Source of the DNA: a virus
Virus record (IMG/VR): IMGVR_UViG_3300042341_001110
Location: 1-23,348 of that record
Strand: one strand, 5' to 3'
Length of the DNA stretch: 23,348 nucleotides
This document shows, in pieces, positions 1 through 23,348 of the stretch. The notes below the pieces were generated by a model that worked only from the letters and a program-made list of their open reading frames with translations, did no database searches and had not been told where the DNA came from. Position 1 is the first letter of the stretch, and each line of letters begins with the position of its first letter. The translations under genes and the position numbers were made by a program.

Positions 1-2
1 TA

Positions 3-3940: not shown

Positions 3941-4602
3941 TGATAGGCACCCCTAGCTATGATGGCAAGGTAGAGGTCAGCTACACTAGCAGTTTATTTT
4001 ATACTACTAAAGCTGCTGAAAAAAGAAACATTGAACTTTTACCCTTATGGGTCAGCTTCGATGCATTGATTCAAAGAGCTAGAAATGACACCTTGCAATT
4101 AGCATATGAGATCGGTGTTGATGATCTCGTATGGATTGATCAAGATATTGAATGGACCCCGCAACAGTTTTTTAAACTACTGGATCATCCTGTAGATGTT
4201 GTGGGTGGCACATATCCCAAAAAAGGGGATCGTCCAGAATATGTTGTAAGACAAATGACTAAACGCCCTATTGACCCGCAAACTGGTTTGATGGAAGTTG
4301 ATGGCTTGGGCACAGGATTTGCACGCATGAGTCGACAAGCTATAAACCATTTGTGGAACACCAGTCAAGCCTATATTGATCCCAAAGACATGAAGCAACG
4401 CCGAATGATCTGTGATGTGATAGTTACCAACACCGGTCTTATGAGTGAGGACATACGTATGTTTGAAAAACTTCAGGAAGGCGGATTTCCCATATATCTT
4501 GACACCACAATCACTTGCAAGCACGGCGGCTATAAGCAATATCAGGGTGACTTCCTACAATGGTACACAGGGCTGGGACAGACAAAAGGCCGGCAATTGT
4601 GA
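3940..4602 (+). CDS. GT-A-like glycosyltransferase with DxD motif
   Basis: The chosen start, ATG at 3940, overlaps the preceding stop (TAATG) and gives 220 residues beginning MIGTPSYDGKVEV, the usual N-terminus of this phage family; an ATG at 3904 would add 12 residues. VWIDQDIEW (about residues 65-73) is a DxD-type metal and nucleotide-sugar site. VVGGTYPKKG and GLGTGFARMSRQA follow, and SEDIRMFEKLQ then GFPIYLDTTITCKHGG close the domain, where the His would complete the metal site. It is probably an inverting or retaining GT-A enzyme of the glycan cluster, coupled in translation to the GT4 gene. Substrate unknown. Confidence 0.75.
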   Translation: MIGTPSYDGKVEVSYTSSLFYTTKAAEKRNIELLPLWVSFDALIQRARNDTLQLAYEIGVDDLVWIDQDIEWTPQQFFKLLDHPVDVVGGTYPKKGDRPEYVVRQMTKRPIDPQTGLMEVDGLGTGFARMSRQAINHLWNTSQAYIDPKDMKQRRMICDVIVTNTGLMSEDIRMFEKLQEGGFPIYLDTTITCKHGGYKQYQGDFLQWYTGLGQTKGRQL

Positions 4603-4670
4603 CTACCTACAAGTGTTGGTCAAGTTCTCAACAGCTTTTTAGTCTATTATAGGCAGATGAATCTTAAATT

Positions 4671-4700
4671 TTGGCAAAAATAGTCAATTTGCCTTATAAT
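4671..4700 (+). promoter_or_regulatory. Sigma70-like promoter ahead of the GT9-like gene
   Basis: TTGGCA (4671-4676), an 18-base spacer, then a perfect TATAAT (4695-4700). It lies in a 122-base gap between two genes. The predicted transcript would start near 4707, just before a GAGGA ribosome site (4714-4718) and ATG at 4725. It would let the carbamoyltransferase operon be expressed by host polymerase independently of the fibre transcript. Confidence 0.6.
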
Positions 4701-4724
4701 ATCTTGAAGCTTCGAGGAACTAGA

Positions 4725-5657
4725 ATGACAAAAAAGATATTTTGGATAGACGGTGGTGCTGGTAGAGTAATCACCGCTATTCCTGCATTAATCAAATACG
4801 GTCGATTGCATCCCAACAGCGAATGGGCTGTGTTGGTTGGGGCATGGGATTTCTTATACTGGGGTATTCCCGAGCTGCAAGATCGCACCTACAATCTTGA
4901 TACAAAAGGTGTTTTTGACAACGTAGTCAAGAATGCTGATCAAATAGTAACCCCGGAGCCTTATCGTATCCCAGCATATTTTAGGCAAGAGATAAGTTTG
5001 GCTGAAGCTTTTGACAGGGAAATCAACCAAACTACAGATCACAGTGATTTATTGCCACCACGCTTGGCATTCAATCAACAAGAAACTCTAGTAGCCAAGA
5101 ATACCATAGCTGATCTCAAAAGTGTGAGCAAAAAGAACAAAACTATTGTATTTCAACCCTTTGGCCGTGGTGCCAAACTGGATCGTGCCACAGTGATTGA
5201 CGAAGAAAGCAGAAGCTTAAGCTCAAACGACTATTTGAGCCTGAGCCGGCGTCTTAATCAAAAATACAACATGATCTTTTTTGGCGAGCCTGACTTTCAA
5301 TTGAAAGACGACAACTGGAGTGCCAAATACACTGCTGATTTAAGAGTTTGGTCAGCTCTAGTTGCCAACTCTGACTATTTTGTAGGATGTGACAGTGTAG
5401 GCCAGCATATTGCTAGAGCCTCTGGAGTACCAGGCACAGTAATTATTGGGAGTACGTTTCCCAAGAACACCAGCTATCCAGATTACTTTCAAATAATTGA
5501 AAAGCCTGCTGCTAGGAAATATAGTCCTATTCGTATTGCTGGTCTGGACGTAAATCTCAGCAATAGGCTGAATGAAGGCACAATGAAATTCTCAACCAAA
5601 GAACTAGACGACATCTATCAAAAGATTGTTGCAGATATTGAAAGGAAAACACGCTGA
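4725..5657 (+). CDS. GT9-like (heptosyltransferase-type) glycosyltransferase
   Basis: ATG at 4725 is preceded by GAGGA seven bases upstream and is preferred over an in-frame TTG at 4671 that lies inside the promoter; this gives 310 residues. The N-terminus IFWIDGGAGRVITAIPAL is the GT-B glycine-rich first loop. VFQPFGRGAKLDR opens the second domain, and GCDSVGQHIARASGVPG (about 221-237) matches the GT9 donor-binding signature D-S-x-x-x-H-x-A-x-x-x-G. GT9 enzymes add ADP-heptose or related sugars to lipopolysaccharide cores; a different nucleotide sugar is equally possible here. The stop overlaps the next start (TGATG), so it is translationally coupled to the carbamoyltransferase. Confidence 0.75.
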   Translation: MTKKIFWIDGGAGRVITAIPALIKYGRLHPNSEWAVLVGAWDFLYWGIPELQDRTYNLDTKGVFDNVVKNADQIVTPEPYRIPAYFRQEISLAEAFDREINQTTDHSDLLPPRLAFNQQETLVAKNTIADLKSVSKKNKTIVFQPFGRGAKLDRATVIDEESRSLSSNDYLSLSRRLNQKYNMIFFGEPDFQLKDDNWSAKYTADLRVWSALVANSDYFVGCDSVGQHIARASGVPGTVIIGSTFPKNTSYPDYFQIIEKPAARKYSPIRIAGLDVNLSNRLNEGTMKFSTKELDDIYQKIVADIERKTR

Positions 5658-7354
5658 TGAAAATAATGGCCATCAATCCCGGTCACAACAGCAGTGTGGC
5701 GCTTGTTGAAGACGGTAAGTTGCTGTTTTATAGCGAGGAAGAACGATGGAGTCGCCTAAAGTATGACGGTAATCCATTTAGAGCCATGCTATGGGTACTA
5801 ACTAATCATTTGGTAGACCACTTGATCATTGGTGGGACCACCACTAATTGGGTTACTCTTCCTTGGACTAACGAGAATGCCTATGCTGCATTAGCTCGCA
5901 AATTCAGTCCTAATGTGCAAGTTACCCTAATGGGCCATCTACATCACTTGGGTCATGCAGCTAATGCCTTCTATGGCAGTGGTTTTGAAACAGCATGCGC
6001 CTTGGTCGTAGATGGGGCCGGAAGCTATGTGCAAGAAAGCATGGGAGAAGGACTACCACTTACTGGGGGTTTTGAAACTGAAAGCATCTATCATTGCAGC
6101 TATCCACATGAGTTCAACGCAGTTTACAAAAGATACAGTGACGGTGCGGAAACCAGCCTCTACTACGACAACGGTATCCAAGAATTTGATAATAATGTTA
6201 CTATTGTTAAGGCATACGAGAGTGTAAGTGATTATTTAGGATTTGGGGCTATTGAAGCTGGGAAGACCATGGGACTAGCTCCTTATGGCCAAGAAGACAG
6301 CAACATTCCTGCCTTTTTCATCAACAATAAAGGCAACAAGAACTTGTTGATTCCTCGATATCCCACCGGCGCACACATTGACGAGAATAGATTTCCTTAC
6401 TTGCGTAGATACACACAACCAAGTGACTGGCATAATAACTTTGAATTAGTGCGAGATCAAGACAAGAATCTAGCCTACCATGTGCAGAAAGAAACTGAAG
6501 AGCAGATGGTGAAGTTGATTGAGCGTGCTATTGACATTACTGGAGAAAATCGCATTGTAATCAGTGGTGGTTATGCACTCAACTGTGTTGCCAACTACAA
6601 ATATCTAGAACGTTTCCCTAATATTGAGTTTTACATTGATCCCATTGCACATGATGGTGGAACAGCCATTGGTTTAGCTCGGCATGCTTATTATGTTCTG
6701 AGCCAAGATACTACACCTCAACCACTCTCTCATCTCTACTTGAGTGTGTTGCCAGACTATAATCAGATTGAAACCACTATTGCTTCTGTTGAAGGTATCA
6801 GCATGAGAGACACATCACCTGCTGAAGTGGCACTACTGCTGGCAGAAGGCAATATTGTGGCTTTGTTTCAAGGCGCTAGTGAAGGTGGGCCTCGTGCACT
6901 AGGCAACAGAAGCATTCTTTTTGATCCTCGAGTAACCAACGGCAAGGATATTGTTAACCAAGTTAAAAATCGTGAATGGTTCCGCCCTTTTGCTGCGAGT
7001 GTGATGGCAGAACATGCAAATGACTGGTTTGACATGCGCAATCTCAATGAAAGCCCTTACATGATGTATGCTGTAAATGTGAAGGAAAGCCAAAGAGAGT
7101 TGATTCCTGCAGTTACACATGTGGATGGCACCTGCAGAGTACAAACTGTCACCAGCGAGCAAAACTTGCATTTGTATCAGCTGCTAGATGCTTTTCGGCA
7201 ACAAACCGAAACACCGTTGCTGTTTAACACTAGTTTCAATCTAGCTGGGCAGCCATTGGTGGAAACACTGGTAGACGCCTTGATAACAATCTTCAACTGT
7301 GATATCCACTACCTGTATCTTCCCGATCTGGGAATGTTAGTATGCAAACAGTAA
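5657..7354 (+). CDS. NodU/CmcH-family O-carbamoyltransferase
   Basis: A 565-residue protein of normal family length. The N-terminal ASKHA-like domain begins MAINPGHNSSVALVEDG. HLHHLGHAANAF (about 94-105) holds the histidines expected to bind metal and carbamoyl-adenylate, and VVDGAGSY and MGLAPYGQ follow. The C-terminal YrdC-like part contains GASEGGPRALGNRSI (about 406-420) and PLLFNTSFNLAGQPLVET. Such enzymes use carbamoyl phosphate and ATP to carbamoylate a hydroxyl on a sugar (Nod factor, antibiotic sugars); most phage members have unknown targets. It sits after a GT9-like gene and before a ruined sulfotransferase, so it probably decorates the glycan made by this cluster. No break or missing motif was seen. 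Confidence 0.92.
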   Translation: MKIMAINPGHNSSVALVEDGKLLFYSEEERWSRLKYDGNPFRAMLWVLTNHLVDHLIIGGTTTNWVTLPWTNENAYAALARKFSPNVQVTLMGHLHHLGHAANAFYGSGFETACALVVDGAGSYVQESMGEGLPLTGGFETESIYHCSYPHEFNAVYKRYSDGAETSLYYDNGIQEFDNNVTIVKAYESVSDYLGFGAIEAGKTMGLAPYGQEDSNIPAFFINNKGNKNLLIPRYPTGAHIDENRFPYLRRYTQPSDWHNNFELVRDQDKNLAYHVQKETEEQMVKLIERAIDITGENRIVISGGYALNCVANYKYLERFPNIEFYIDPIAHDGGTAIGLARHAYYVLSQDTTPQPLSHLYLSVLPDYNQIETTIASVEGISMRDTSPAEVALLLAEGNIVALFQGASEGGPRALGNRSILFDPRVTNGKDIVNQVKNREWFRPFAASVMAEHANDWFDMRNLNESPYMMYAVNVKESQRELIPAVTHVDGTCRVQTVTSEQNLHLYQLLDAFRQQTETPLLFNTSFNLAGQPLVETLVDALITIFNCDIHYLYLPDLGMLVCKQ

Positions 7355-7720
7355 ATTTAAAAGAGTTTCACTTGAGCAGTGCGTTACCTGGAGCAGGTAG
7401 CCCACTGCTCAACAGCATAATTAAACAAAATCCAAAGTTCTCTGCCACTATAAGTGATCCTTTGCATAGTTTTGTGCACATCCTTATAAGAGACATCAAC
7501 AGCCCTGTTGGTGTGGTTGCACAAATAACTTGAGATCGACGCCGGCAAATACTCACAATGAGTTTGATATTGGATAGCATACAGTCCAAAAAAAGTGGTC
7601 GCTACTACCAATTCTCCAAGAGACTTGACGACTGTGTTGTAGGATCTGTAATTACCTTATGATTTTTTGGTAATGAAACAGCTTAGAATTACAAAATATC
7701 CTCTAGATTCACGCATATAG
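7342..7720 (+). pseudogene. Decayed sulfotransferase gene
   Basis: The ATG at 7342 overlaps the carbamoyltransferase stop by 13 bases, as a live operon gene would. The first 63 codons read like the start of phage sulfotransferases: FHLSSALPGAGSPLLN stands where the PAPS-binding LPRSGSTLL loop belongs, then QNPKFSATISDPLHSFVH. A TGA at 7531 interrupts the frame, but homology-like text continues with DRRRQIL. After the seven-A run at 7588-7594 the family pattern resumes in another frame: KKVVATTNSPRDL, then two stops (TAG, TAA), then LPYDFLVMKQLRITKYPLDS, resembling the FPxxKFLVxVRDIxWxLDS segment. Nothing recognisable of the C-terminal half remains before the next gene. It therefore carries at least three stops, one frameshift and a truncation, and the P-loop Arg and Thr are also lost. 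The family call rests on remembered motifs. The 63-residue N-terminal fragment could still be translated. Confidence 0.65.
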
Positions 7721-7784
7721 CAGATCTTTTAACAAAAGTATGCAACACTGGAAGTTTCATACACCTACAAGAAAGCAATTATAA

Positions 7785-8660
7785 ATGGCAGGCACCTTAT
7801 ATGGGATGATAACTGTTGCAAGCAGCAACCAATATACACATGTAGCCCTTACAAGTTTTTTCAAACACACAAAATTATCTGCAGAAGATAGGTTTGTGTT
7901 GATTGACAACGACGGAGAATGGACTAAAAACTGGCATTTGGACTGTTTTGATCCCAACCTAGTATATGTGAATTCAAACCCTCAGAATTTTAGCACAAAT
8001 ATCAATCAATTGCTGAGATGGGCTGATGAACAATATGCAGATTTAGTTTTCCTCAGCAATGATGTTGTTTTTACCCCCAAGTGGGCTACCCGTCTAGTGA
8101 TAAATGACAGGACAGTGAGCATTCCCAGTTGTAATCAAACTCATTTTTATGGCTTTGACCCTACCTTAAATCTACAGCAATTTGGTGGTAGATTTCTACA
8201 TTTGAATGTAGCTGCTCACACACATGCTGCACGGTCACCAGCACCTTTTGAGCGCCTTCTCATGCCCACCTATGTATGTAGAATTCCACGTCTAATTTAC
8301 CAAGAAGTTGGAGGCTTTGATGAAGCGTTCAACATGGGAGGTGAAGATGTGGACTATAGATTGCGCCTACTTCAAAAAGGCTTTGAAATCAAATATTGCA
8401 GCAGTTATTTGCTACACTTCAACGGTTGCAGTAGTTGGAACGGGGCGGAAACCTTAGCTGAAACTCAACTGCGTAACCGGTTGTATATGCAAACTTTTAT
8501 TGAGAAATGGGGAGAAGATTTACACGACTTGTGTATGAGTTCAGGACAACCAACATCTATTATTGAAAAATATCAATTACACGGGTTACTTAACGAATGC
8601 CGTTTCAACGACATAATAAAATCCTTGCTAACTGCACTAGAGTTCAATAAAGTTATATAA
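7785..8660 (+). CDS. GT2-family glycosyltransferase (GT-A fold)
   Basis: A 291-residue protein. VASSNQYTHVALTSFFKHT begins the nucleotide-binding fold; VFLSNDVVFTPKW stands where the GT2 metal-site loop is found; EVGGFDEAFNMGGEDVDYRL (about 173-192) is the classic GT2 acceptor-side segment with the ED pair; and YLLHFNGCSSW supplies a likely metal-binding His. The tail after about 240 is not recognised. The start could be ATG 7785 or 7806; neither has a convincing ribosome site. It probably extends or branches the glycan built by the genes before it, from which it is separated by the sulfotransferase wreck and about 65 bases of non-coding DNA. Confidence 0.8.
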   Translation: MAGTLYGMITVASSNQYTHVALTSFFKHTKLSAEDRFVLIDNDGEWTKNWHLDCFDPNLVYVNSNPQNFSTNINQLLRWADEQYADLVFLSNDVVFTPKWATRLVINDRTVSIPSCNQTHFYGFDPTLNLQQFGGRFLHLNVAAHTHAARSPAPFERLLMPTYVCRIPRLIYQEVGGFDEAFNMGGEDVDYRLRLLQKGFEIKYCSSYLLHFNGCSSWNGAETLAETQLRNRLYMQTFIEKWGEDLHDLCMSSGQPTSIIEKYQLHGLLNECRFNDIIKSLLTALEFNKVI

Positions 8661-9256: not shown

Positions 9257-10471
9257 TTAGTTTGCGTTCATGCTCGGAATAAGTGACGAATATTGTTTCA
9301 CAAAAACTTTCCATGAACTCAGTTGATTTGGCTTGATGGGGTGGTCACGTGTAGTTGCCATAAACGACCGAGCACCCATTACAACCATCTCCGGTTCAAA
9401 GTTGTCCATCATGAACTGGAAGAAGCGATCGGCGCTCTTATACATGTCATCGTGCGAATTCTTCACACCATTCTGCTTATTACTCTCAGCTTTCTTGACA
9501 TCATCTGTGAGCTCATACACCAGTGCAGTGGTCAGTGCATAGCAAATGTCCATCTGCTTCACGTTCAGCTTGGTGACTGTGCCATCAAGGATGTCGCGTG
9601 CACGGGGTAGGTTAGCTGCTTGTCGACGATAGCTGAGGAACTTCAGGGCAGGACCCTCACCTACAGTGCCCTTGATGAGATCGCCAAGCACATCTGCTGG
9701 CAGATCCGTCTCGCGGTAGCTGCCATCCAGTTGGGGCTCATACAGCAGTTCGCTGACAAAGCTCCAGCTACGTGGGGTAGCAAACGCATAGCTTTCGCGA
9801 CGGGGATCAAAGTCAAAGAGATCATTGGGCTGATAGCTGAGGTAACCCACCACATGCTCGTGGATGCGATTCATCATAGCCCATTCCTGCCAGTCATCAA
9901 AGTCCACAGCCAGCGTTGCATGGATGAAGCGATTTGCCAGCGGAGTTGGCATGTTGTAGGCCACACCCTTGTCACGCACTCGGTTACCAGCAGCAACCAT
10001 CACTGCATCATCAGGCAGCTGGTAACTGCCAATGCGCCGGTTCAGGATCAGCTGATATGTGGCAGCCTGCACAGAGGGTGGTGCTGCGCTCATCTCATCA
10101 AAAAACACCATTGCGCGGCTGTTGGGATCAGTGGGCAGATCGGTAGGGTTGCTCCACTTGAAAATCTTCTCTGTCAGTGGAACGTTGTGCTCATTCTTTA
10201 CCACGTTGCCTTCTGCATCGCGGATAGTCACTTCTGCGAGGTGCGGAATGCCTCGAATGTCAGTGGCCTCAAGTAGGGGAAGTCGAATGTCAATCAGTGG
10301 GCGCTTCTGAGCACGAGCAACCTCTGCAACAATGTCACTCTTGCCAATGCCAGGAGGGCCGGCGATGAAGAGAGGTCGCTTCCTACGCGTCACGTGATCG
10401 ATCATCACCTTCAGCTTGCTGGGACTGACAGTAGTGATTGTCTGGATTTTCTCTTGAGCTGCCTTAGCCAT
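9257..10471 (-). CDS. MoxR-type AAA+ ATPase
   Basis: A 404-residue protein. Walker A is GPPGIGKS (38-45), Walker B MVFFDE (121-126), and AAGN (160-163) fits sensor 1. TPLANRFIHATL and DFDDWQEWA fit the MoxR/RavA branch, whose members usually act as chaperone-like remodelers with a von Willebrand A-domain partner. No such partner is in the window. The C-terminal third (after about 310) is not recognised. It has its own sigma70-like promoter and terminator, and three 60-base lines sampled inside it were 55-58% GC against 38-48% in three other genes, so it looks like an independently acquired single-gene cassette. Ribosome site AAGGA lies 11 bases before the ATG. Phage role unknown; remodeling of a virion or metal-cofactor complex is possible. 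Confidence 0.88.
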   Translation of the reverse strand: MAKAAQEKIQTITTVSPSKLKVMIDHVTRRKRPLFIAGPPGIGKSDIVAEVARAQKRPLIDIRLPLLEATDIRGIPHLAEVTIRDAEGNVVKNEHNVPLTEKIFKWSNPTDLPTDPNSRAMVFFDEMSAAPPSVQAATYQLILNRRIGSYQLPDDAVMVAAGNRVRDKGVAYNMPTPLANRFIHATLAVDFDDWQEWAMMNRIHEHVVGYLSYQPNDLFDFDPRRESYAFATPRSWSFVSELLYEPQLDGSYRETDLPADVLGDLIKGTVGEGPALKFLSYRRQAANLPRARDILDGTVTKLNVKQMDICYALTTALVYELTDDVKKAESNKQNGVKNSHDDMYKSADRFFQFMMDNFEPEMVVMGARSFMATTRDHPIKPNQLSSWKVFVKQYSSLIPSMNAN

Positions 10472-10508
10472 GTCTGCGTGTGTCCTTGCTGTTGTGTATT
10501 ACCAGCTG

Positions 10509-10536
10509 AATATATGGCAGGTATTTTTTACGTCAA
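10509..10536 (-). promoter_or_regulatory. Sigma70-like promoter of the MoxR gene
   Basis: Minus strand: TTGACG (10536-10531), a 16-base spacer, TATATT (10514-10509). It lies in the 73-base gap between the preceding gene's stop (10545) and the MoxR ATG (10471), leaving a leader of about 30 bases. This is the clearest sigma70 match in the leftward half. Confidence 0.6.
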
Positions 10537-15528: not shown

Positions 15529-16410
15529 TTAGGCGTAACTTCCAAATAAATGCAATTGCATATTAAAGACGAATCCGTTCTGGACACAATAACGAGCAGC
15601 GTGTTCGTGATTGGCTTGAGCAGTTTGCATATTGATAAGCCCTGGCGTCCAAAAACTCACAACTTCATCCACAATACTGCGTTCTTCAAGACTAATTTGA
15701 TTTTTCTCAGCTCGAATTTGCTTGCTTTTCTGCGGTTCATGGTTGTAAATGTTCATGGGACTTACAAACACCTTCTTACCAGTTTGGTCCCGCCAGTTGT
15801 GTGCCCAGTCAGGGACATTATTGTAAGGAGTATCAGAATCTGCACTCATTACAAATTTCAAACAGTCTGCTCTTCCTAGCATTTCTGCTCGTGGTTCAAG
15901 ATATTTCACCGGACGGCCATTTTTTTCACTGCACTTGGGACTTACTACTAAGGTAGTTTCCTGAGGAATGTTCTGGACGATAGTGCCGTTGCTTTCAATT
16001 TGCGTTCGGGCAAACTGGGTATTCATATGCTCTAAAAATGGAACAATGTTTTTTTGTAGCATGGGCTCACCGCCAGTAAGCACGAGAACCATGTTGCGTT
16101 TCTTTACAGGATCACTTCCTGGACCCCCATACACAACATCAGCCCAAAGAGGGGTATTACCATTGAAGCTGTCAGAGATGCTCTTTGCGATTTTGGAGTC
16201 AATCTCTTGGATTGTCATCCAATCACCATCATCAAAGAAAGTATCACAAAATGAACATTGGAGATTGCACTTGGCTAGCCTAACAAACACAGCAGGCTCG
16301 CCTCGATATGGGCCTTCTCCCTGAAATGTGGTGAAAATACTAGTTACAAAAAGTTCATCTTCTGCATTTTTGAAGTAACGTTCACCAACCAGCTCATTGC
16401 GTCCAAACAT
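15529..16410 (-). CDS. queE: 7-carboxy-7-deazaguanine synthase (radical SAM)
   Basis: A 293-residue protein. CNLQCSFCDT (C48, C52, C55) is the C-x3-C-x2-C iron-sulfur motif of radical SAM enzymes; FTTFQGEGPYRGEPAVFVRL is the QueE substrate-binding start; TGGEP (112-116) binds SAM; and VVSPK lies at about 155. QueE converts 6-carboxytetrahydropterin to 7-carboxy-7-deazaguanine, the third step of preQ0 synthesis after FolE and QueD. It is longer than many bacterial QueE (210-250 residues) because of the DSFNGNTPLWADVVYGGPGS region and a longer C-terminal half. AGGAG lies nine bases upstream of the ATG. It shares direction with folE and dpdA further upstream, supporting a DNA-modification role. 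Confidence 0.9.
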   Translation of the reverse strand: MFGRNELVGERYFKNAEDELFVTSIFTTFQGEGPYRGEPAVFVRLAKCNLQCSFCDTFFDDGDWMTIQEIDSKIAKSISDSFNGNTPLWADVVYGGPGSDPVKKRNMVLVLTGGEPMLQKNIVPFLEHMNTQFARTQIESNGTIVQNIPQETTLVVSPKCSEKNGRPVKYLEPRAEMLGRADCLKFVMSADSDTPYNNVPDWAHNWRDQTGKKVFVSPMNIYNHEPQKSKQIRAEKNQISLEERSIVDEVVSFWTPGLINMQTAQANHEHAARYCVQNGFVFNMQLHLFGSYA

Positions 16411-16427
16411 CCTAGATTCTCCTATTT

Positions 16428-16457
16428 GTTATAATTTTGTTGTAACCATGCAGACAA
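16428..16457 (-). promoter_or_regulatory. Possible sigma70-like promoter ahead of queE
   Basis: Minus strand TTGTCT (16457-16452), an 18-base spacer, TATAAC (16433-16428), in the 62-base gap before queE. Both hexamers deviate from consensus, so this is only a candidate. If real, queE would not depend wholly on the long upstream transcript. Confidence 0.35.
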
Positions 16458-16472
16458 GTCAAGGAGCTTGTG

Positions 16473-17057
16473 TTAAAGCTGCCAAACTAGTTGATAGCCG
16501 TCATATACAAGCGGCACACAAATGTTTTGAAAGAATTCTTCCACATACTTGCCTTTGCCTATCCGAGAAGAAGAGTCACCAAAATTATCGTCCACAGCAA
16601 TCATTGTGCCTGGACCCAAACAACTCCAAATTGCAGTCAATTCTTTCATATGATGAAAACTACTGGGATGAGGATTGTCTGGGTAAAAATCAAAACTGTC
16701 GAGATAGAGTAAGTTTATCTGACGGTTTTCTGCCTGCAACTTTTGACTTAAATTTCGTAACCAAACAACACTGTCTTGACAAAAAATTTGTGTGTTTGAG
16801 CACACTTGTGAGCGAGAAAAATTCACATGAGACTCATCCAAATCAACTGTCAATAGTTGCCCAGAAAAAGTTTCCACATACTTGTCAAAAATTATTGTAC
16901 TGAAACCATCACCGTGGAATCCATGTTGTAGGCTGCGACTGCATCCAGTTTCAACAATCAACGGATTGGCAGTTTGTTTTAGATGATTTATCATTATTTC
17001 AAAGCTGGCTTGGCGCTTACCTGTTTGGGCCAGCATTTGTTCAAGGCTCATGTCCAT
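16473..17057 (-). CDS. SAM-dependent methyltransferase (Methyltransf_24-like)
   Basis: ATG at 17057 has AAGGGAG eight bases upstream and avoids overlap with the GT17 gene, giving 194 residues; an in-frame start at 17129 is less likely. LIVETGCSRSL (33-43) is the glycine-poor motif I of this methyltransferase group, LLTVDLDE (68-75) carries the SAM-ribose acid, and LLYLDSFDFYPD and TMIAVDDNFGD provide the later strands. Relatives methylate sugars or small molecules, often by metal-dependent O-methylation. It follows three glycosyltransferase genes, so a glycan hydroxyl is the best guess for its target. Confidence 0.75.
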   Translation of the reverse strand: MDMSLEQMLAQTGKRQASFEIMINHLKQTANPLIVETGCSRSLQHGFHGDGFSTIIFDKYVETFSGQLLTVDLDESHVNFSRSQVCSNTQIFCQDSVVWLRNLSQKLQAENRQINLLYLDSFDFYPDNPHPSSFHHMKELTAIWSCLGPGTMIAVDDNFGDSSSRIGKGKYVEEFFQNICVPLVYDGYQLVWQL

Positions 17058-17073
17058 TTTTATTTCTCCCTTG

Positions 17074-17946
17074 TTATGTTCTGTAAGTGTGTTGGGTATC
17101 AAAAGGATAGATATCACTTGTTTTGACACCTAACCCAGGTGCAACATGTTGCGAGAATTTTTGTGCATTGGATAAGACAAAATTGGGAAAATAGTTGTTC
17201 AATTCCACTGTTTCAAAAAACTGTCCTGGGGTGTGATGGCTACCTTTTGTGGCTATAAATCTGTCAATGTCAAAGTTTTCGACTATTTCAGGTATATTCT
17301 CATTTGTATGAACAAAACTGTTGATCTTTTGAATACAATGCTGATTGTTTCCCAATGAGCTCCAATGCCAACCTCCATGCGCAACAAAGGCTGTGCCATC
17401 AGGCAACCCAACCCATGGAAACGTAAATGTTCGTTCTGTTTGAGGGTCAGTAAAGTCTTGAGACTTTGAGACAATAATACTTGGACCAGCTTGCCAATCT
17501 ACCCCATTTGTGGTTTTGATTCTCATGTAATTTAATTTATACAAATACTGTGGAGCAAACAAAATCCAACGAGTGTGCTGACTATCATGTTTTATGCTAG
17601 AAACTACTGATGCTCGAGGAATTTCATCGGCATCAGTTACAATGATCAAATCATCAGGGCTTTTGTCTCCTAGTCCTCGAGCAAGACATCTGCGTTGATG
17701 ATTTTCTCTGAACCAAAGGTTGTCTTCACCGCCAGGCATGTCATCAACAACAATGTGACGAATTTTCTGGGCATATTTTTCAAAGCGTTGTTTGTTTAGA
17801 TCAAAATACAAGGGCTTGAACATGCCAGTATGTGTAACATTTGATTCAGCTAACACAAAATAGTCAACAACGTCCCATAGCTCTTCAAGGCGTATTTCAA
17901 GTAGATCTAACTCATTGAAAAAAGTAAAACAATCATATACTTTCAA
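17074..17946 (-). CDS. GT17-family glycosyltransferase
   Basis: A 290-residue protein starting with TTG; AAAGGA lies seven bases upstream and the protein begins exactly as the family does (KVYDCFTFFNELDLLEIRL). DYFVLAESNVTHTGMFKPLY, NLWFRENHQRRCLARGL and IIVTDADEIPR (DAD at 105-107) follow. GT17 includes the eukaryotic bisecting N-acetylglucosaminyltransferase; bacterial and phage members transfer unknown sugars. It is the third of three consecutive glycosyltransferase-like genes in the leftward block and is followed 16 bases later by a methyltransferase. Confidence 0.88.
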   Translation of the reverse strand: MKVYDCFTFFNELDLLEIRLEELWDVVDYFVLAESNVTHTGMFKPLYFDLNKQRFEKYAQKIRHIVVDDMPGGEDNLWFRENHQRRCLARGLGDKSPDDLIIVTDADEIPRASVVSSIKHDSQHTRWILFAPQYLYKLNYMRIKTTNGVDWQAGPSIIVSKSQDFTDPQTERTFTFPWVGLPDGTAFVAHGGWHWSSLGNNQHCIQKINSFVHTNENIPEIVENFDIDRFIATKGSHHTPGQFFETVELNNYFPNFVLSNAQKFSQHVAPGLGVKTSDIYPFDTQHTYRT

Positions 17947-17964
17947 TTTTTTGTCCTTTGGCAG

Positions 17965-18657
17965 TTACAACAGTATTTTGTTTTGCCAACTGTTGCACAA
18001 ATTTATTTTTTCTGATTCACTTACACCAGGAAAATGCACAGCCCAATCGCCTGGCTGCCATGAGCCATCTGTCAACAGTTTGTCCAAGGCAGGTTTTGGT
18101 ATATAAGGATATAGGTTGTAATCATAGCTGTTTAACATTCGTTGAGGCACAACTTGAATCGTTTTGTCCCAAGGATGTGGAATTTTCAAAGACTCGCCTT
18201 GCGGGTAACTTGGGTGGTGTGTGCCGGGGAACCCAAATAACTGATTCAATGCCCACTGTTCTGAGTCCCAATGTTGCAAAGCTTCTTTTTCCACTTTCAA
18301 TAACTCGTGCAGTAATGACCGACACTGACTTGAGTTACGAAATAAAATGCTGCCTGTATTGAGGCCATTTACATCAGTTGAGATGAGTAAATCATGTGTG
18401 TCACTAGTTTTTTCTTGTATGGTTGTTTTGAAGTTGGTGATCAAAACATCAGTATCAGTATACCAAAGCCAACTGAGATGTGGGTGTGTGTCAAAAAGTT
18501 CCAACACCGCATGGATTCTGTCAAAGTGACTGGTCCAAGTGGTTTTTTCAAACAGATGATAATTGTGTCTCTGAGCATACAGCTTTTTGTTTTTGTCCAA
18601 GGTTATTTTTGAAAGTTCTGAGAAATTGTTGTTGTAAACAACCAGCAGTCCATACAT
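17965..18657 (-). CDS. GT34-like glycosyltransferase
   Basis: ATG at 18657 (230 residues) comes 11 bases after the preceding stop; a TTG at 18672 overlapping that stop is the alternative. WLWYTDTDVLITN holds the DxD motif (about 68-70). DLLISTDVNGLNTGSILFRN, WDSEQWALNQLFG, VVPQRMLNSYDYN and GDWAVHFPGV follow in the order typical of GT34 (galactosyl/xylosyltransferases of the GMA12/MNN10 type). It is likely to add one sugar to a glycan acceptor. Bacterial and phage homologues are uncharacterised. Confidence 0.85.
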   Translation of the reverse strand: MYGLLVVYNNNFSELSKITLDKNKKLYAQRHNYHLFEKTTWTSHFDRIHAVLELFDTHPHLSWLWYTDTDVLITNFKTTIQEKTSDTHDLLISTDVNGLNTGSILFRNSSQCRSLLHELLKVEKEALQHWDSEQWALNQLFGFPGTHHPSYPQGESLKIPHPWDKTIQVVPQRMLNSYDYNLYPYIPKPALDKLLTDGSWQPGDWAVHFPGVSESEKINLCNSWQNKILL

Positions 18658-18668
18658 GTGTTGCCCGA

Positions 18669-19466
18669 TCAAAAATAATTTCCATTTATGCGGTCAAACC
18701 AACAATCGCCCCCGCCTCCTAGAGGAGTTTGTGTTTTTGTATCCCGATTGCCTTCGCACCAATAGCTTTTGCCCAAACCTATCGCTATAGCCAATGGCGC
18801 ACTTTGATTGCCAATGAACATTTCACAACCTTGAATTACCTGTGCCAAATGCAACAGATCTAGGGTAGGAAAATAGTCAATAGTCTCCTTGAACTCTGTT
18901 TGCCACTCTTGATGTTCTCTAGGTGTGCCCACAAACACAGCCTGCTTGCACAGACCTTGTTTGATAAAATCCATCCATTTTTGTGTAGCACTGTTGTCTC
19001 TATGTCTAGGTGTTCGATTGATTACTATGGGTCGATTGGGGATAAGGATTGGGCTAACCTGTGTGAGCCAAGGCTCTCTCAACAACTGGTGCTGCAATTG
19101 AACGTCAGTCATATCCCATCCCAGTCCCAAGGCATAGGCTTGAGTTTGATTACCTTGCCAACCAGAAGGTAATATGAATTTCCAATTTTCAGCTGCTAAA
19201 TCATAATCAATGTGCTGGTTGGTATAGATTTGCACTTCATGCAAATAACTTTGGTGTAACAACAGGCTTTCAATGTTTTGAAAATCTTTTTCACTTATTC
19301 TGCCTGTGAAGGGCTGATTGTACCAACCCAACACATTTCGGCAAAACTCATCAAGGTATCCCAATTTGAGGTAAATGTTGCCACCCCCAAGGATTTTTAC
19401 TGCACAAAGACTGTATATTATATCACCAGCAGTGGCATAGGTTATGAAGTTTTTCAGCACAATCAA
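18669..19466 (-). CDS. GT-B glycosyltransferase-like protein (GT9-like)
   Basis: A 265-residue protein. The frame has no upstream ATG (an in-frame stop lies six codons before), so translation begins at TTG 19466 or GTG 19460. FITYATAGDIIYSLCAVKIL is the first GT-B loop, RPIVINRTPRHRD starts the second domain, and GNQSAPLAIAIGLGKSYW (219-236) resembles the GT9 donor-binding segment. The N-terminal domain is compact, and whether it is catalytic is uncertain. It is next to the GT34 and GT17 genes. Confidence 0.65.
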   Translation of the reverse strand: MIVLKNFITYATAGDIIYSLCAVKILGGGNIYLKLGYLDEFCRNVLGWYNQPFTGRISEKDFQNIESLLLHQSYLHEVQIYTNQHIDYDLAAENWKFILPSGWQGNQTQAYALGLGWDMTDVQLQHQLLREPWLTQVSPILIPNRPIVINRTPRHRDNSATQKWMDFIKQGLCKQAVFVGTPREHQEWQTEFKETIDYFPTLDLLHLAQVIQGCEMFIGNQSAPLAIAIGLGKSYWCEGNRDTKTQTPLGGGGDCWFDRINGNYF

Positions 19467-19511
19467 CCCAAGAAAACTATTTCAAAACTATACCAGAGTC
19501 GTGCAAGATTG

Positions 19512-20093
19512 TCACTTTTTCCTAAGAATGATTTCGATAGCTGATTCACCAATGGGTGTCAGTGTTTGATCTTGATTTTGAATATGGTATCGATAACTGG
19601 CATCCAAAAGCTCAAGCTTCAAGATAGTGAGTTCGGGAAAGTTGGCTAGGAAACTTGTGCAGCTTACAGAAACAGGACTCCAGCTGAGATTTTTTTGAAT
19701 TGTCCAAGTAGTTTTGTGATCCCAGTTGAAACGACTGGGAAAAACCCCTTGTTCATAAAGGTCTTCATCTGGAACCAATAGGACCATATGCCCACCTGGT
19801 TGCAAAATTCTGCTCCAGTTTCTCATAGCTTCTGTAGGGTCTCTCATGTGCTCAAGACAATGGCTGCTGAGTAACCAATCAAAACTGTTGTCAGCTACAC
19901 CTGCCATCAACTGCGCATCACCATCAGGTAGGTCCCAATTTCTCACCTGCTGCATTCCTGGAAAAAAATCTTTGTAATTGCTGACTGGGTCATCCCCAGC
20001 ACCAATGTCAATGCCATTGCCTACGAAATATCGAGTAATAAATCTGCTGTCAGAGAGCCTTCTCATAACAGCTTTACTGGTTTCATGTGTCAT
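19512..20093 (-). CDS. Class I SAM-dependent methyltransferase (Methyltransf_11-like)
   Basis: A 193-residue protein. GNGIDIGAGDDPV (25-37) is motif I, DGDAQ (57-61) the acidic adenine loop, SSHCLEHMRDP (76-86) motif III, and LQPGGHMVLLVPDED (97-111) the strand-4/5 region. The C-terminal half is short and substrate-specific. The ATG overlaps the previous gene by 11 bases and has GGAG eight bases upstream. By context the target could be a sugar, a precursor lipid or nucleobase, or a protein; nothing in the sequence decides between them. Confidence 0.82.
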   Translation of the reverse strand: MTHETSKAVMRRLSDSRFITRYFVGNGIDIGAGDDPVSNYKDFFPGMQQVRNWDLPDGDAQLMAGVADNSFDWLLSSHCLEHMRDPTEAMRNWSRILQPGGHMVLLVPDEDLYEQGVFPSRFNWDHKTTWTIQKNLSWSPVSVSCTSFLANFPELTILKLELLDASYRYHIQNQDQTLTPIGESAIEIILRKK

Positions 20094-20538
20094 TTTGATT
20101 CTCCAAACTGTTGTTTAACGCCTGCCAAGTGAGTTTCCCTTCTCTATGCTCAACTTCTGTTTCCAATGGCCTAATCAGGTCCTCATGGGAAACTTGTTTA
20201 GCTATCCTCAAACACTTTTTAACCCCTTGTAGATAACTTCTTGCTATAGCTACTTCCCCAGCGGCTTTTATGTCAATGCAGTTCTGCAAACTGTCTACCA
20301 ACTTAGATGCTGCCTTAGTGGGATGGTTTTGATGCCAAGTGACCTCACCTTGTATGCTGATGCTTAAGATGGTTTCGCCATAGTCATTGTCAACTCGCAA
20401 TGCTTGAGTAGGCCTGGCATTACTGCTACCAAATGTCAGTAACGTACCAACCGTGTAACCTGATCCAAGGTTATTCACTGTGATACCGGTTACACTGCCT
20501 TGACAGACACTGGTTACCTTAAAAATATTAGAGGCCAT
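20083..20538 (-). CDS. Hypothetical phage protein with structural-type N-terminus
   Basis: ATG at 20538 overlaps the previous stop (TGATG) with AGAGG upstream, giving 151 residues. The first third, SVTGITVNNLGSGYTVGTLL, is the GSGYTxG type of beta turn common in phage baseplate and fibre proteins. The rest (HPTKAASKLVDSLQNCIDIK, AIARSYLQGVKKCLRIAKQ) is predicted helical and unrelated to it by eye. It may be a small virion or assembly protein; the function is not known. Confidence 0.7.
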   Translation of the reverse strand: MASNIFKVTSVCQGSVTGITVNNLGSGYTVGTLLTFGSSNARPTQALRVDNDYGETILSISIQGEVTWHQNHPTKAASKLVDSLQNCIDIKAAGEVAIARSYLQGVKKCLRIAKQVSHEDLIRPLETEVEHREGKLTWQALNNSLENQNDT

Positions 20539-20822
20539 CAGGAACCTCTGGGCGATTGCAAAAACTCTATAAAACGAGCTTGATCTTCCACAGCCCAAAA
20601 ACTGAACCGAAAACTCTCATAGCTGATTTTTTCTGTGGACCAAATATTGGTGCAATTTTCCACACACCAATTGAACAACAGTTCATAACTGGGTTCATAA
20701 CGTTGGTTGGATGGCTTGTAAAGCTCTTCGAAGCTAAGGAGTAATTGATTGTGAATGAGTATTGCCCGAACACTCTCGGGCAACACATTCCACTCTCTAT
20801 ATCTACTGTTGATGATTTTCAT
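20538..20822 (-). CDS. Small hypothetical phage protein
   Basis: A 94-residue protein with AGGT about ten bases before the ATG. VLPESVRAILIHNQLLLSFE and LYKPSNQRYEPSYELLFNWC suggest a helical protein rich in Trp, Phe and Tyr (NIWSTEKISYESFRFSFWAV). No motif recognised. It follows folE by 39 bases and is coupled to the next gene by a TGATG overlap. Confidence 0.7.
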   Translation of the reverse strand: MKIINSRYREWNVLPESVRAILIHNQLLLSFEELYKPSNQRYEPSYELLFNWCVENCTNIWSTEKISYESFRFSFWAVEDQARFIEFLQSPRGS

Positions 20823-20861
20823 ATTTTGACCTAAAAATTCTCTGTTACAATAACTGTTGTA

Positions 20862-21542
20862 TTAGAGAGAGGTCAAGTCAACCATCTTCATAAATTCAGC
20901 ACGAGCACTGGGATCCTGTTTGAACGCACCACCCAGCTTGCTGGTAACTGTGCTGCTGCAATCATCTTCAACGCCACGATGACTTACGCAATAGTGCTTG
21001 CCGTGAATGACGACAGCAATGCTATCGGTTTCCAGGATATATTCCATTGCATGAAAGATCTGCTCAGTCAAACGCTCTTGAATTTGTGGTCGGCGGCTAA
21101 AGTATTCGACAATTCGATTGATCTTGCTTAGGCCCAATACCTTTTCTTTGGGAATATAAGCCACAGTTGCTACACCATCAATCACAATGAAGTGATGTTC
21201 GCAGGCACTTTTGACAGTGACATTTCGTTCACACACCATTTCATCATAGCCCATTTTGTTGGCAACAGTGGTGCACTTGGGGAAAGCTTCCCAATCAAGA
21301 CCCCAAAAAAGTTCCTGGATAAACATGCGAGCCACTCGTGTCGGCGTTTCAGCCAAACTATCATCTGATAGATTCAAGCCCATTGTTTCCATGATGTCCT
21401 TGAACTTGCGTTCAATAATATCAATTTTGTCTGTGCGGCTTAGGGAATTTTCCACTGTTGGGGTTTCAACCCCTTTGGAAACTAGGTATTCATGTACTTT
21501 GCGACCCAGTTCAGGATCACATTTTGTGCGATTATAGCTCAT
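20862..21542 (-). CDS. folE: GTP cyclohydrolase I
   Basis: ATG at 21542 is chosen because AAAGGAAAG precedes it; an in-frame TTG at 21578 would add 12 residues. In the 226-residue product, ACEHH (113-117) and HYCVSHRGVEDD (183-194) supply the zinc ligands C114, H117 and C185, with the same spacing as the E. coli enzyme. LAETPTRVARMF, LGLSKINRIVEYFSRRPQ and QERLTEQI complete the family signatures. It converts GTP to dihydroneopterin triphosphate, the entry step to 7-deazaguanines. The first 40 or so residues before the conserved domain are not recognised. A late-promoter octamer lies 76 bases upstream. Confidence 0.95.
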   Translation of the reverse strand: MSYNRTKCDPELGRKVHEYLVSKGVETPTVENSLSRTDKIDIIERKFKDIMETMGLNLSDDSLAETPTRVARMFIQELFWGLDWEAFPKCTTVANKMGYDEMVCERNVTVKSACEHHFIVIDGVATVAYIPKEKVLGLSKINRIVEYFSRRPQIQERLTEQIFHAMEYILETDSIAVVIHGKHYCVSHRGVEDDCSSTVTSKLGGAFKQDPSARAEFMKMVDLTSL

Positions 21543-21617
21543 ATCTTTCCTTTCAAAGCATCTGTCGTTTATGCACAACGGGTGTTTCCACCAATTTGCT
21601 ACCGTAATGTAGCAGAC

Positions 21618-21625
21618 TATTTATA
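21618..21625 (-). promoter_or_regulatory. T4-type late promoter ahead of folE
   Basis: Minus strand exact TATAAATA followed by G, in the 103-base gap between dpdA and folE, 76 bases before the folE ATG. It would give a leader of roughly 65-70 bases. Late expression of an enzyme for DNA base synthesis is unexpected, because modification is needed while DNA is being made; the octamer may also be chance in AT-rich spacer DNA. Confidence 0.45.
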
Positions 21626-21642
21626 ACACAAAAATTGTGTTA
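21624..21642. repeat. Perfect 8-base inverted repeat after dpdA
   Basis: TAACACAA, three A, TTGTGTTA, only three bases past the dpdA stop and touching the late-promoter octamer. It could be a transcript-end hairpin (though it lacks a following T-run on the minus strand) or an operator over the promoter. Confidence 0.6.
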
Positions 21643-21645
21643 TTG

Positions 21646-23304
21646 CTATTCAAATTCATCAAAATCCATGACAATGTTGTTATCAGCGTTCATTCCTGTG
21701 ATTTTGGCTAACATAGCAGAATGTTTTTCAATCAGTTGCATGGGTTTTTCACTAGTGAAGATCTCTTCACAAAGTCCCCCAGCAAATTCAATCAAGTCTT
21801 CGCTGATGTGATGTTTCCTCTCCTCCATTGGCAGGTCTTGCATTGCACATGCATGTTGAATAGCTTCAATATGAAGCTCAACATTGTGGCTCATGCCCAG
21901 CACATAGCTGAGACCATCCATGCTGCTGGGCCATTTGACCTGATACTTTTCATGGTCCTTAAACTCTTTCTTGCCCCAATCAAACATGCCGCTGCCGTGG
22001 TCAGTGTGCTCATGCATAAGATAATGTTTGTATTCATCACTGTAGCGAAACTTCTCGCCATGAACGCCTTCCAAGCTTTGTTGATACAACAAGCTTTCAA
22101 ACTCTTTTTGTGAAAAAGCTTGTTTTTTGAAATTGAGATCTTCATAACCTTTGACACAGATATCACCAATGGTGATCCGCTTGCCAATGCTGCTTTCGCG
22201 AACAGCATGTTTTTGATTGTGGCGATTGATCCAGTCTTGAAACAGTTCTTGACTGCCCTTAAGCTCTTTTTTGTCTGGCAACGAGTTGTTTTTATATGCA
22301 ATGCTTTGCGGACTTACTTCCCAACTGTAGTAGATGTTGCCTTTTGCTACGTTCACAAAAGGACTTGCTGCATCGTAACTGAGAGTTGTACGCTCGTTGA
22401 TGTGCTTTCTCCACACTCGTTGAAGTGTAGTAAGAGCGCAGCCTGCCTTGATTTTGCCATTGCCTAGATAATGGATCCAATCTCTGTTATCCAAATACTT
22501 GCCATCTCGCATGATAATGATCCGACGGAGATTTATAGCAAAGTTGCTGGCTTGCACATTACTGAATGCCCAGGTTTCAAAAGGAAGATCTTTCACAACG
22601 TCCCACCAAATGTCACCTTCTTCTTGATTGCGCCCCTGCAACACATTCAAAAATTGTGTACTACCTTCCCGACGATTTTTGATGAAAAAGTTGTGATTCT
22701 CCATACTGCTTTCAAGACAGTCTCTAAAGTTCTTAACCCCAGGATGTAGGTTCTCACCTGTGATGGGATCGTTACCAAACTTCAACAAGCTGCCTGTGGG
22801 GACATCTAATACCATACTGTAGTCACAAGTGTGTTCAAGCCAGCGTAGGATTTTCATCCTAATGGCGTCTTTGTCCTTCATCCAGTCTTGATCAGTTTGC
22901 TTTTCTTTTTTCTGCCAAGGCCATTTGAGAACGCCAGTAGCAATCTGATAACCACCACTGTCGCCCACAATTACTGAGGCGTTTTTGTCTCGCTTTTGCA
23001 CCATAGCTTCTTGGATATCACTTTGAGCAGGATCCCAATAACTGTGACCGCTGCTGTAGAGTGCAGTGGGATAATAAAATAAGTTGGTATTGGTTTGCAG
23101 AAAGTCCAAATCCTGCAATCCACCCGGCAGCCCCTTGACTGTGCGAGCGTTGGGCTGACTTACTAGTCGCACATAGATCGCTGAGATTGAAGGAAGAAAA
23201 ATAGCATAGTCCTTGTTGGTGGTCCACATGTCTCTACCCACCACAGGTTGCATGTTTTGATCAATTTTTTTCAAATGTGGGTTGGGGCTGGAAAGTTTTG
23301 TCAT
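21646..23304 (-). CDS. dpdA: DpdA-type 7-deazaguanine DNA transglycosylase
   Basis: A 552-residue protein of the tRNA-guanine transglycosylase superfamily. VIVGDSGGYQ (111-120) matches the DSGGFQ base-binding motif, D167 lies in MVLDVPTG, FLNVLQGRN (218-226) matches the QGG region, and LSYDAASPF (D310) stands where TGT has its nucleophile in FDCVLPTR. DpdA enzymes swap guanine in DNA for preQ0 or a related 7-deazaguanine. The TGT C-x-C-x2-C zinc motif is not visible, and about 200 residues follow that I cannot assign, with a His-rich KHYLMHEHTDHGSGMF. FolE directly downstream and QueE in the same orientation support the call. The ATG at 23304 has no clear ribosome site. Confidence 0.85.
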   Translation of the reverse strand: MTKLSSPNPHLKKIDQNMQPVVGRDMWTTNKDYAIFLPSISAIYVRLVSQPNARTVKGLPGGLQDLDFLQTNTNLFYYPTALYSSGHSYWDPAQSDIQEAMVQKRDKNASVIVGDSGGYQIATGVLKWPWQKKEKQTDQDWMKDKDAIRMKILRWLEHTCDYSMVLDVPTGSLLKFGNDPITGENLHPGVKNFRDCLESSMENHNFFIKNRREGSTQFLNVLQGRNQEEGDIWWDVVKDLPFETWAFSNVQASNFAINLRRIIIMRDGKYLDNRDWIHYLGNGKIKAGCALTTLQRVWRKHINERTTLSYDAASPFVNVAKGNIYYSWEVSPQSIAYKNNSLPDKKELKGSQELFQDWINRHNQKHAVRESSIGKRITIGDICVKGYEDLNFKKQAFSQKEFESLLYQQSLEGVHGEKFRYSDEYKHYLMHEHTDHGSGMFDWGKKEFKDHEKYQVKWPSSMDGLSYVLGMSHNVELHIEAIQHACAMQDLPMEERKHHISEDLIEFAGGLCEEIFTSEKPMQLIEKHSAMLAKITGMNADNNIVMDFDEFE

Positions 23305-23348
23305 AGATATATCTTACTTTACTGTGGTTGATCTAGCAACTGTGTTGC

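Follow-up and report, generated by a model that had tools for sequence, protein, structure and literature searches.

A candidate 7-deazaguanine DNA-modification cassette of large phages, with a QueD paralogue probably in the place of QueC

The IMG/VR virus record IMGVR_UViG_3300042341_001110, a stretch of 23,348 bp that we call the window and that is an inner piece of a larger phage genome, encodes FolE, QueE and a DpdA-type DNA guanine transglycosylase. The original prediction had identified these three enzymes as parts of a 7-deazaguanine route with missing steps, with neither QueD nor QueC encoded in the window. We agree on both counts: FolE and QueE have matches in family libraries, the DpdA assignment is carried by predicted fold and profile comparison, and QueD and QueC are not in the window. 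However, the gap at QueC appears to have an occupant. Beside dpdA, at and just beyond the edge of the window, lie a gene for a glycosyltransferase and a gene for a 123-aa paralogue of QueD (Table 1). We consider it probable, at about 0.62, that these genes form a DNA-modification cassette that branches off at 7-carboxy-7-deazaguanine (CDG), with the QueD paralogue in the place of QueC.

FolE has the metal-site motifs CEHH and HxC..RG; its listed start codon is TTG, although translation may really begin at an ATG 12 codons further on (~21542). For QueE, a Radical_SAM match falls under the Pfam cut-off (E 4e-5) and a CX3CX2C motif is present at residue 48. These two frames and that of DpdA are all open. 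Because the 552-aa protein has no family-library match (Pfam, PHROG and PADLOC searches gave nothing at E<=0.001), the name DpdA needed testing. Searches of PDB sequences, a profile search included, also gave no relevant match. We therefore built an AlphaFold model from a 59-sequence alignment of relatives (pLDDT 86, pTM 0.84). Its first-ranked Foldseek match is the tRNA-guanine transglycosylase (TGT) 7a9e (E 6.4e-6), and its second is 7ui4 (E 9.3e-6), a crystal structure of DpdA, the enzyme that inserts preQ0 into DNA; superposition on TGT 2ash_B with VIA-align gives Z 19.7 and a root-mean-square deviation (rmsd) of 4.8 over 308 residues. Against a profile of three DpdA2 proteins, including that of Vibrio phage nt-1, hhalign gives E 1.2e-7. 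All 51 aligned relatives share two aspartates, D115 of the DSGG[FY]Q motif and D311, which align with DpdA2; by analogy with TGT we take them to be catalytic. The tie to DpdA2 is one of profile and fold only, and not of tblastn: with the window's protein as query none of nt-1, ACP17 and X1 was found, and with the DpdA2 of ACP17 there was no Sinorhizobium record and, among Pseudomonas, phage pf16 only. Judged by its modelled fold, the 552-aa protein is a member of the DpdA/TGT superfamily, with insertion into DNA itself predicted.

The 123-aa protein has no Pfam match at E<=1, its family profile gives unrelated weak matches only against PDB sequences, and the corresponding PHROGs entry, phrog_17812, is listed as of "unknown function". 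Its predicted structure (pLDDT 94.6) is nearest to QueD/PTPS structures, the first rows being tied; superposition on E. coli QueD (4ntk_A) gives Z 12.6 and an rmsd of 2.4 over 111 residues, and hhalign connects the family to QueD at E 3.1e-5 with probability 73. All 42 sequences retain Glu110 and three histidines. All of them also carry leucine (Leu36) opposite the catalytic cysteine of QueD (Cys27, before HxH), in a column that is cysteine in 10 of 11 QueD sequences. On the model, then, the protein is a QueD paralogue with the T-fold of QueD and, since the catalytic cysteine is replaced by leucine, it should not run QueD's own reaction. We rejected it as the missing QueD for this reason and because a canonical QueD is also found nearby in relatives: in ACP17, RHph_I1_18 and phiST, a canonical PTPS/QueD lies within ~4 kb of the paralogue. 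Two further observations concern this family. In Bakedbeans and MA9V-3 the paralogue stands at the C-terminal end of a longer protein (L247:8212-9363 and L250:8467-9348) whose N-terminal part has no significant Pfam family. A scan of a genome collection returned 11 contigs (L236-L246), all titled as metagenome-assembled genomes; they are probably phage contigs that were binned with bacteria or archaea.

The glycosyltransferase gene encodes 362 aa and ends 9 bp from dpdA on the same strand. The Glycos_transf_1 match is under the cut-off for the window's phage (E 0.0058) and for ACP17 (2.5e-4), and over it for X1 (8e-12); the best match of the family profile among PDB sequences is 8xsg, at E 0.041. 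All 34 sequences of the family have R209, K214 and E268, and position 260 is glutamate in 30 and aspartate in 4, which gives an EX7E-like pair.

To see how regularly these genes occur together, we gathered relatives from viral contigs with alignments of DpdA and of the QueD paralogue, taking the best 80 loci for each. At least 594 stretches encode relatives of DpdA and at least 581 encode relatives of the QueD paralogue, so that the counts below refer to the nearer relatives. Removal of loci more than 95% identical in the anchor protein reduced the DpdA set from 92 to 70 and the QueD-paralogue set from 80 to 60; full flanks were available for 25 of the former (~8 kb on each side) and 39 of the latter (5.5 kb). 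The seeds of the local QueE profile include one that is really a QueC (Vibrio phage 2.275.O, L049:19575), and overlapping assignments were settled by best score. The 25 full-flank DpdA loci all have the QueD paralogue and the glycosyltransferase; FolE is present in 23, QueE in 22, QueD in 4 and QueC in none. Across all 70 DpdA loci, many of them cut short, the corresponding counts are 58 for the QueD paralogue, 55 for the glycosyltransferase, 45 for FolE, 36 for QueE, 6 for QueD and 0 for QueC. Seen from the other side, the 39 full-flank QueD-paralogue loci include 37 with the glycosyltransferase, 33 with window-type DpdA, one with DpdA2 and none with QueC. In the 140 loci that hold dpdA and both of its companions (a set that was not dereplicated), the three genes are always on one strand, in five different orders, so their association survives rearrangement. 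It also crosses subfamilies, as the glycosyltransferase and the QueD paralogue accompany two kinds of DpdA in unrelated phages: the window's type in PA5oct and Phosso, and DpdA2 in ACP17, X1 and BUCT-ZZ01. By these comparisons of gene content, the glycosyltransferase is part of the dpdA module in the window's phage and its relatives. Two GT4-like genes of the Synechococcus phage BUCT-ZZ01 (L248:6367-7710 and 9358-10524) flank its DpdA2 and QueD-paralogue genes.

A comparison of named phages suggests what the two extra genes might be for. Wherever a DpdA of the window's type or a DpdA2 occurs with the QueD paralogue, the glycosyltransferase is present too (5 of 5: PA5oct, Phosso, ACP17, X1 and BUCT-ZZ01). 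Where the paralogue occurs without either DpdA, there is no such glycosyltransferase (6 of 6: RHph_I1_18, phiST, Ahp1, Bakedbeans, D479 and MA9V-3). Finally, phages that combine DpdA with QueC or a QueC-like gene have neither extra gene (4 of 4); these are 2.275.O with window-type DpdA, nt-1 and Mendera with DpdA2, and CAjan with DpdA1, the QueC-like gene of Mendera giving a partial profile match of 41 bits. A full-length QueC match was found in only one of 31 related whole records, that of Vibrio phage 2.275.O (172 bits), which pairs window-type DpdA with QueF and YhhQ and lacks the QueD paralogue and the glycosyltransferase. ACP17 and Mendera, which are described as distantly related (PMC9025141), differ, among other things, in precisely this exchange of QueC for the two extra genes. 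Because both extra genes lie beside dpdA in 25 of 25 loci and in none of the four phages with DpdA and QueC, QueC looks replaced in these lineages, and not merely lost. The description of the route as incomplete thus holds insofar as it stops short of QueC, and needs amending insofar as it took the step to be simply absent. As a separate observation, the gene adjoining dpdA in 2.275.O (L049:16723-17835) has a near-cut-off match to an amidoligase family (PF12224, E 1.8e-4) and is followed by QueF, YhhQ and QueC, which may represent another way of decorating the base.

QueC was not found well beyond the window either. The window matches a contig of 309,756 bp at 100% identity and one of 328,603 bp at 99.93%; in contig G001 it occupies positions 157270-180617, reversed, with a 100% match. 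Since the two contigs share an overlap of 237.7 kb (99.99% identity), the parent genome should be ~400 kb or more, and the joined sequence that we examined comprises 400,663 bases. Both of its outer ends stop in repeats, and extension did not reach closure. Pfam searches for QueC and for QueD each gave 0 of 13 close-relative records, both large contigs included; as a control, the same searches found QueC in 12 and QueD in 9 of 14 control genomes. For these two genes, the wider search that the original prediction had called for, conducted with local profiles and a motif scan, likewise gave nothing in the ~400 kb of this unclosed genome. A hidden QueC in that sequence was considered and rejected, as just one SGGxDS protein is convincing and by eye it resembles TilS. 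QueD is encoded in 22 of the 31 related whole records, often outside the module; of the nine without it, two are the large contigs of the window's phage and several others are fragments. The window's phage may obtain this activity from its host, by salvage through a YhhQ-type transporter or from a gene in an unassembled gap.

Based on these results, the following pathway can be proposed. FolE would make dihydroneopterin triphosphate; QueD, probably the host's here and the phage's own in many relatives, would carry this to 6-carboxytetrahydropterin (CPH4), and QueE would produce CDG. The QueD paralogue would then act on CDG in place of QueC, most likely by decarboxylation to 7-deazaguanine; CDG, or CDG already borne by DNA, is its likely substrate by elimination. 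Such processing might come before or after DpdA exchanges the base for guanine in phage DNA, and the modified base would guard this DNA against nucleases that recognise guanine at N7. Cui et al. 2023 (NAR, cited in PMC13329287) reportedly describe phages that carry 2'-deoxy-7-carboxy-7-deazaguanine (dCDG) and 2'-deoxy-7-deazaguanine (dDG), and predict a CDG decarboxylase, DpdL, a role that the 123-aa family would fit. That DpdA-inserted 7-deazaguanines occur in phage DNA and protect it is established (PMC6884629).

The glycosyltransferase is harder to place. It might add a sugar before or instead of decarboxylation, or it might act on something else. We consider it less likely than not that it puts a sugar on the 7-deazaguanine of the phage DNA; the attachment point could be, for instance, the 7-carboxylate of CDG or a group that the paralogue creates. 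No glycosylated 7-deazaguanine in DNA turned up in paper searches of an open-licence library. Among the passages that a word search returned from papers on Paride and PA5oct, none dealt with modification of the phage's own DNA, and in that on MIJ3 there was no occurrence.

Several points weigh against the proposed cassette. Two of the 39 full-flank QueD-paralogue loci have no glycosyltransferase, five of them have neither window-type DpdA nor DpdA2, and the six named phages listed above have the paralogue without window-type DpdA, DpdA2 or the glycosyltransferase; given these exceptions, the link between the three genes is not a strict one. Five further records have partial QueC matches, of which three (G034, G017 and G030) exceed the Pfam cut-off. 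All three are short PP-loop proteins, 205-232 aa long, that have SGGxDS and, at the end, C..CGxC..C. The contig G017 also holds L077, which belongs to the 25 full-flank loci, but the QueC-like gene lies outside the flanks of that locus; phage D479, which has the QueD paralogue, shows a similar partial match. To judge from these features, the short proteins in G034, G017, G030 and D479 could be divergent forms of QueC; the few large phages with such PP-loop proteins are represented by L221, L222, L223 and L256. A further difficulty is that QueD of the window's phage was not found in a genome whose ends are unclosed. The role as a decarboxylase, moreover, derives from what Cui et al. 2023 reportedly predict together with the presumed identity with DpdL. 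Lastly, a decarboxylated base offers no obvious acceptor for a sugar, which fits badly with a conserved glycosyltransferase.

The original prediction had suggested that, without a phage QueC, the inserted base could be CDG itself instead of preQ0. A route through CDG is indeed probable. However, because the QueD-fold gene and the glycosyltransferase are conserved where QueC is not found, the inserted base is more likely, as far as gene content can indicate, a product of further processing of CDG (7-deazaguanine or a form that bears a sugar). If CDG itself were inserted, yielding dCDG, the QueD paralogue and the glycosyltransferase would act elsewhere or later. The presence of FolE and QueE with no QueC found would accord with that, yet the two extra genes stand beside dpdA in all 25 full-flank relatives, none with QueC in its flanks, and the four phages that combine DpdA with QueC gave no match to either, which points to processing; we therefore regard insertion of unprocessed CDG as improbable.

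Next in our estimate, and also improbable, is that host QueD and QueC complete the route, or that a YhhQ-type transporter imports preQ0, and that DpdA inserts preQ0. A YhhQ homologue is indeed encoded in the same genome (Table 1), and a local profile finds a gene of the YhhQ family near DpdA in 3 of 70 relatives, in L062 between FolE and QueE. This family has been tied to preQ0 transport (PMC5372724), and according to PMC6884629 many hosts of such phages encode a full queuosine pathway. Nevertheless, the transporter gene lies ~124 kb from the dpdA cassette, adjoining a tRNA gene, and a match was seen in only 2 of the 31 records (G002 does not cover that part of the genome). Moreover, if a phage depended on the QueC of its host, it would be hard to see why it keeps genes for FolE and QueE next to a QueD paralogue that stands in for QueC.

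That the enzymes serve tRNA queuosine, with the DpdA-like protein as an RNA transglycosylase, is very improbable: the TGT fold, the tRNA enzymes that are the best structural matches in VIA and the 18 predicted phage tRNAs, including a tRNA-Asn(GTT) with a queuosine-type anticodon, are outweighed by the profile kinship to phage DpdA2, by the TGT-type zinc motif CxCxxCx(18-32)H not being found in the window's protein, by the lack of a QueF match in ~400 kb with a two-seed local profile (QueA, QueG and QueH were not searched), and by the position of dpdA downstream of DNA polymerase-like and clamp-like genes (by eye) and near a gene matching the RNase H of PA5oct.

Table 1. Genes of the candidate cassette and the transporter gene; coordinates are those of the window unless contig G001 or locus L039 is named.
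Feature	Coordinates	Strand	Details
QueE, CDG synthase, radical SAM	15529-16410	-	293 aa; phrog_2076 "QueE-like", E 9.9e-50
FolE, GTP cyclohydrolase I (GTP to dihydroneopterin triphosphate)	20862-21578	-	Pfam PF01227 GTP_cyclohydroI, E 2.1e-60; phrog_2197, E 1.8e-71
DpdA-type DNA guanine transglycosylase (predicted)	21646-23304	-	552 aa; fold, profile comparison, invariant Asp
GT4-like glycosyltransferase	23314-23348 (last 35 bases); remainder outside the window, G001 156216-157304 (L039:16216-17304)	-	
QueD paralogue (predicted fold)	Outside the window, G001 155674-156045 (L039:15674-16045)	same as dpdA	123 aa; ~1.3 kb upstream of dpdA
YhhQ-family (QPTR) transporter	G001 30764-31390		PF02592, E 6.8e-21, 75.7 bits (cut-off 27.2)

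Between folE and queE, positions 16473-20093 hold a variable cassette of sugar and methyltransferase genes (GT17-like, GT34-like and others). Loci L004 and L005 are 97-98% identical in DNA on either side of it; there, four of its five genes give way to alleles with 43-68% protein identity, whereas no match was seen for the fifth. In L051-L057, a set that includes truncated loci, none of the five is matched. We therefore rejected these genes as parts of the base pathway. The order of the QueE, RNase H and ATPase genes is the same as in the Pseudomonas jumbo phage PA5oct.

Elsewhere in the window, positions 1-3020 encode a protein that by eye resembles a tail fibre; it contains long internal repeats, and its end looks like an intramolecular chaperone. 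The repeats also self-align out of register in G001 and G002. Positions 3032-8660 hold plus-strand glycosyltransferase-like genes and a carbamoyltransferase-like gene (5657-7354), also assigned by eye; PADLOC found nothing for two genes of this run. The TilS-like protein (L034:4728-5333, G001 44728-45333) adjoins a predicted tRNA-Met(CAT) at G001 45377, which suggests that the phage makes a tRNA-Ile2 together with the lysidine synthase for it. One of the phage's tRNAs is called as tRNA-Pyl(CTA).

What had been a pathway with missing genes becomes a testable module, since two further genes adjoin dpdA where QueC was not found, and phrog_17812 gains a predicted fold and a likely substrate. We know of no explained place for a glycosyltransferase in any 7-deazaguanine pathway. 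If it is true that this enzyme acts on the base, there would be a sugar on guanine, which would bear on restriction, on Cas nucleases and on sequencing artefacts. Relatives of the module are plentiful in viral contigs, and isolates that have it exist (Sinorhizobium phage Phosso, PA5oct and BUCT-ZZ01).

DpdA-based 7-deazaguanine modification is already known, and Cui et al. 2023 are said to describe DpdA3 and DpdA4, so that the window's subfamily may already have been named there. DpdL, which is said to give 2'-deoxy-7-deazaguanine, would likewise act on CDG where QueC is absent; its presumed identity with the 123-aa family is our own proposal. The alpha- and beta-glucosyltransferases of T4 act on hydroxymethylcytosine. 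They resemble the enzyme described here as phage glycosyltransferases in a DNA-modification setting, and differ from it in that ours is GT4-like with an EX7E-like motif. Among phages with a que pathway, one that lacks only QueC was known before, namely Mycobacterium phage Bipper (Hutinet et al. 2019, PMC6884629). The preQ0-type phage pathway, group 2 of Hutinet et al., encodes FolE, QueD, QueE and QueC; the window's phage departs from it in that neither QueC nor QueD was found in its unclosed genome. Vibrio phage nt-1 (PMC6884629) has a DpdA2-type enzyme and shares with the window's phage FolE, que genes and a profile-related transglycosylase for a 7-deazaguanine, whose insertion by the window's enzyme is predicted; in contrast, nt-1 has QueC and QueD and is without the QueD paralogue and the glycosyltransferase. 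Acidovorax phage ACP17 is closer in content, with FolE, DpdA, glycosyltransferase, QueD paralogue and QueE and no QueC match, but its DpdA is a DpdA2 instead of the window's subfamily and a canonical QueD is in the same cluster. PA5oct (Arenbergviridae) has a DpdA of the window's subfamily (30% identity), the glycosyltransferase, the QueD paralogue and QueE. However, its order of DpdA, glycosyltransferase and QueD paralogue is the reverse of that in the window's phage, it has no YhhQ match, and QueD is present, with two PTPS/QueD matches elsewhere in the genome and, by eye, a FolE-like frame beside them. As far as we have checked, what is new relative to these systems is the apparent substitution of a QueD paralogue and a glycosyltransferase for QueC, together with the spread of this arrangement and of the window's DpdA subfamily among large phages.

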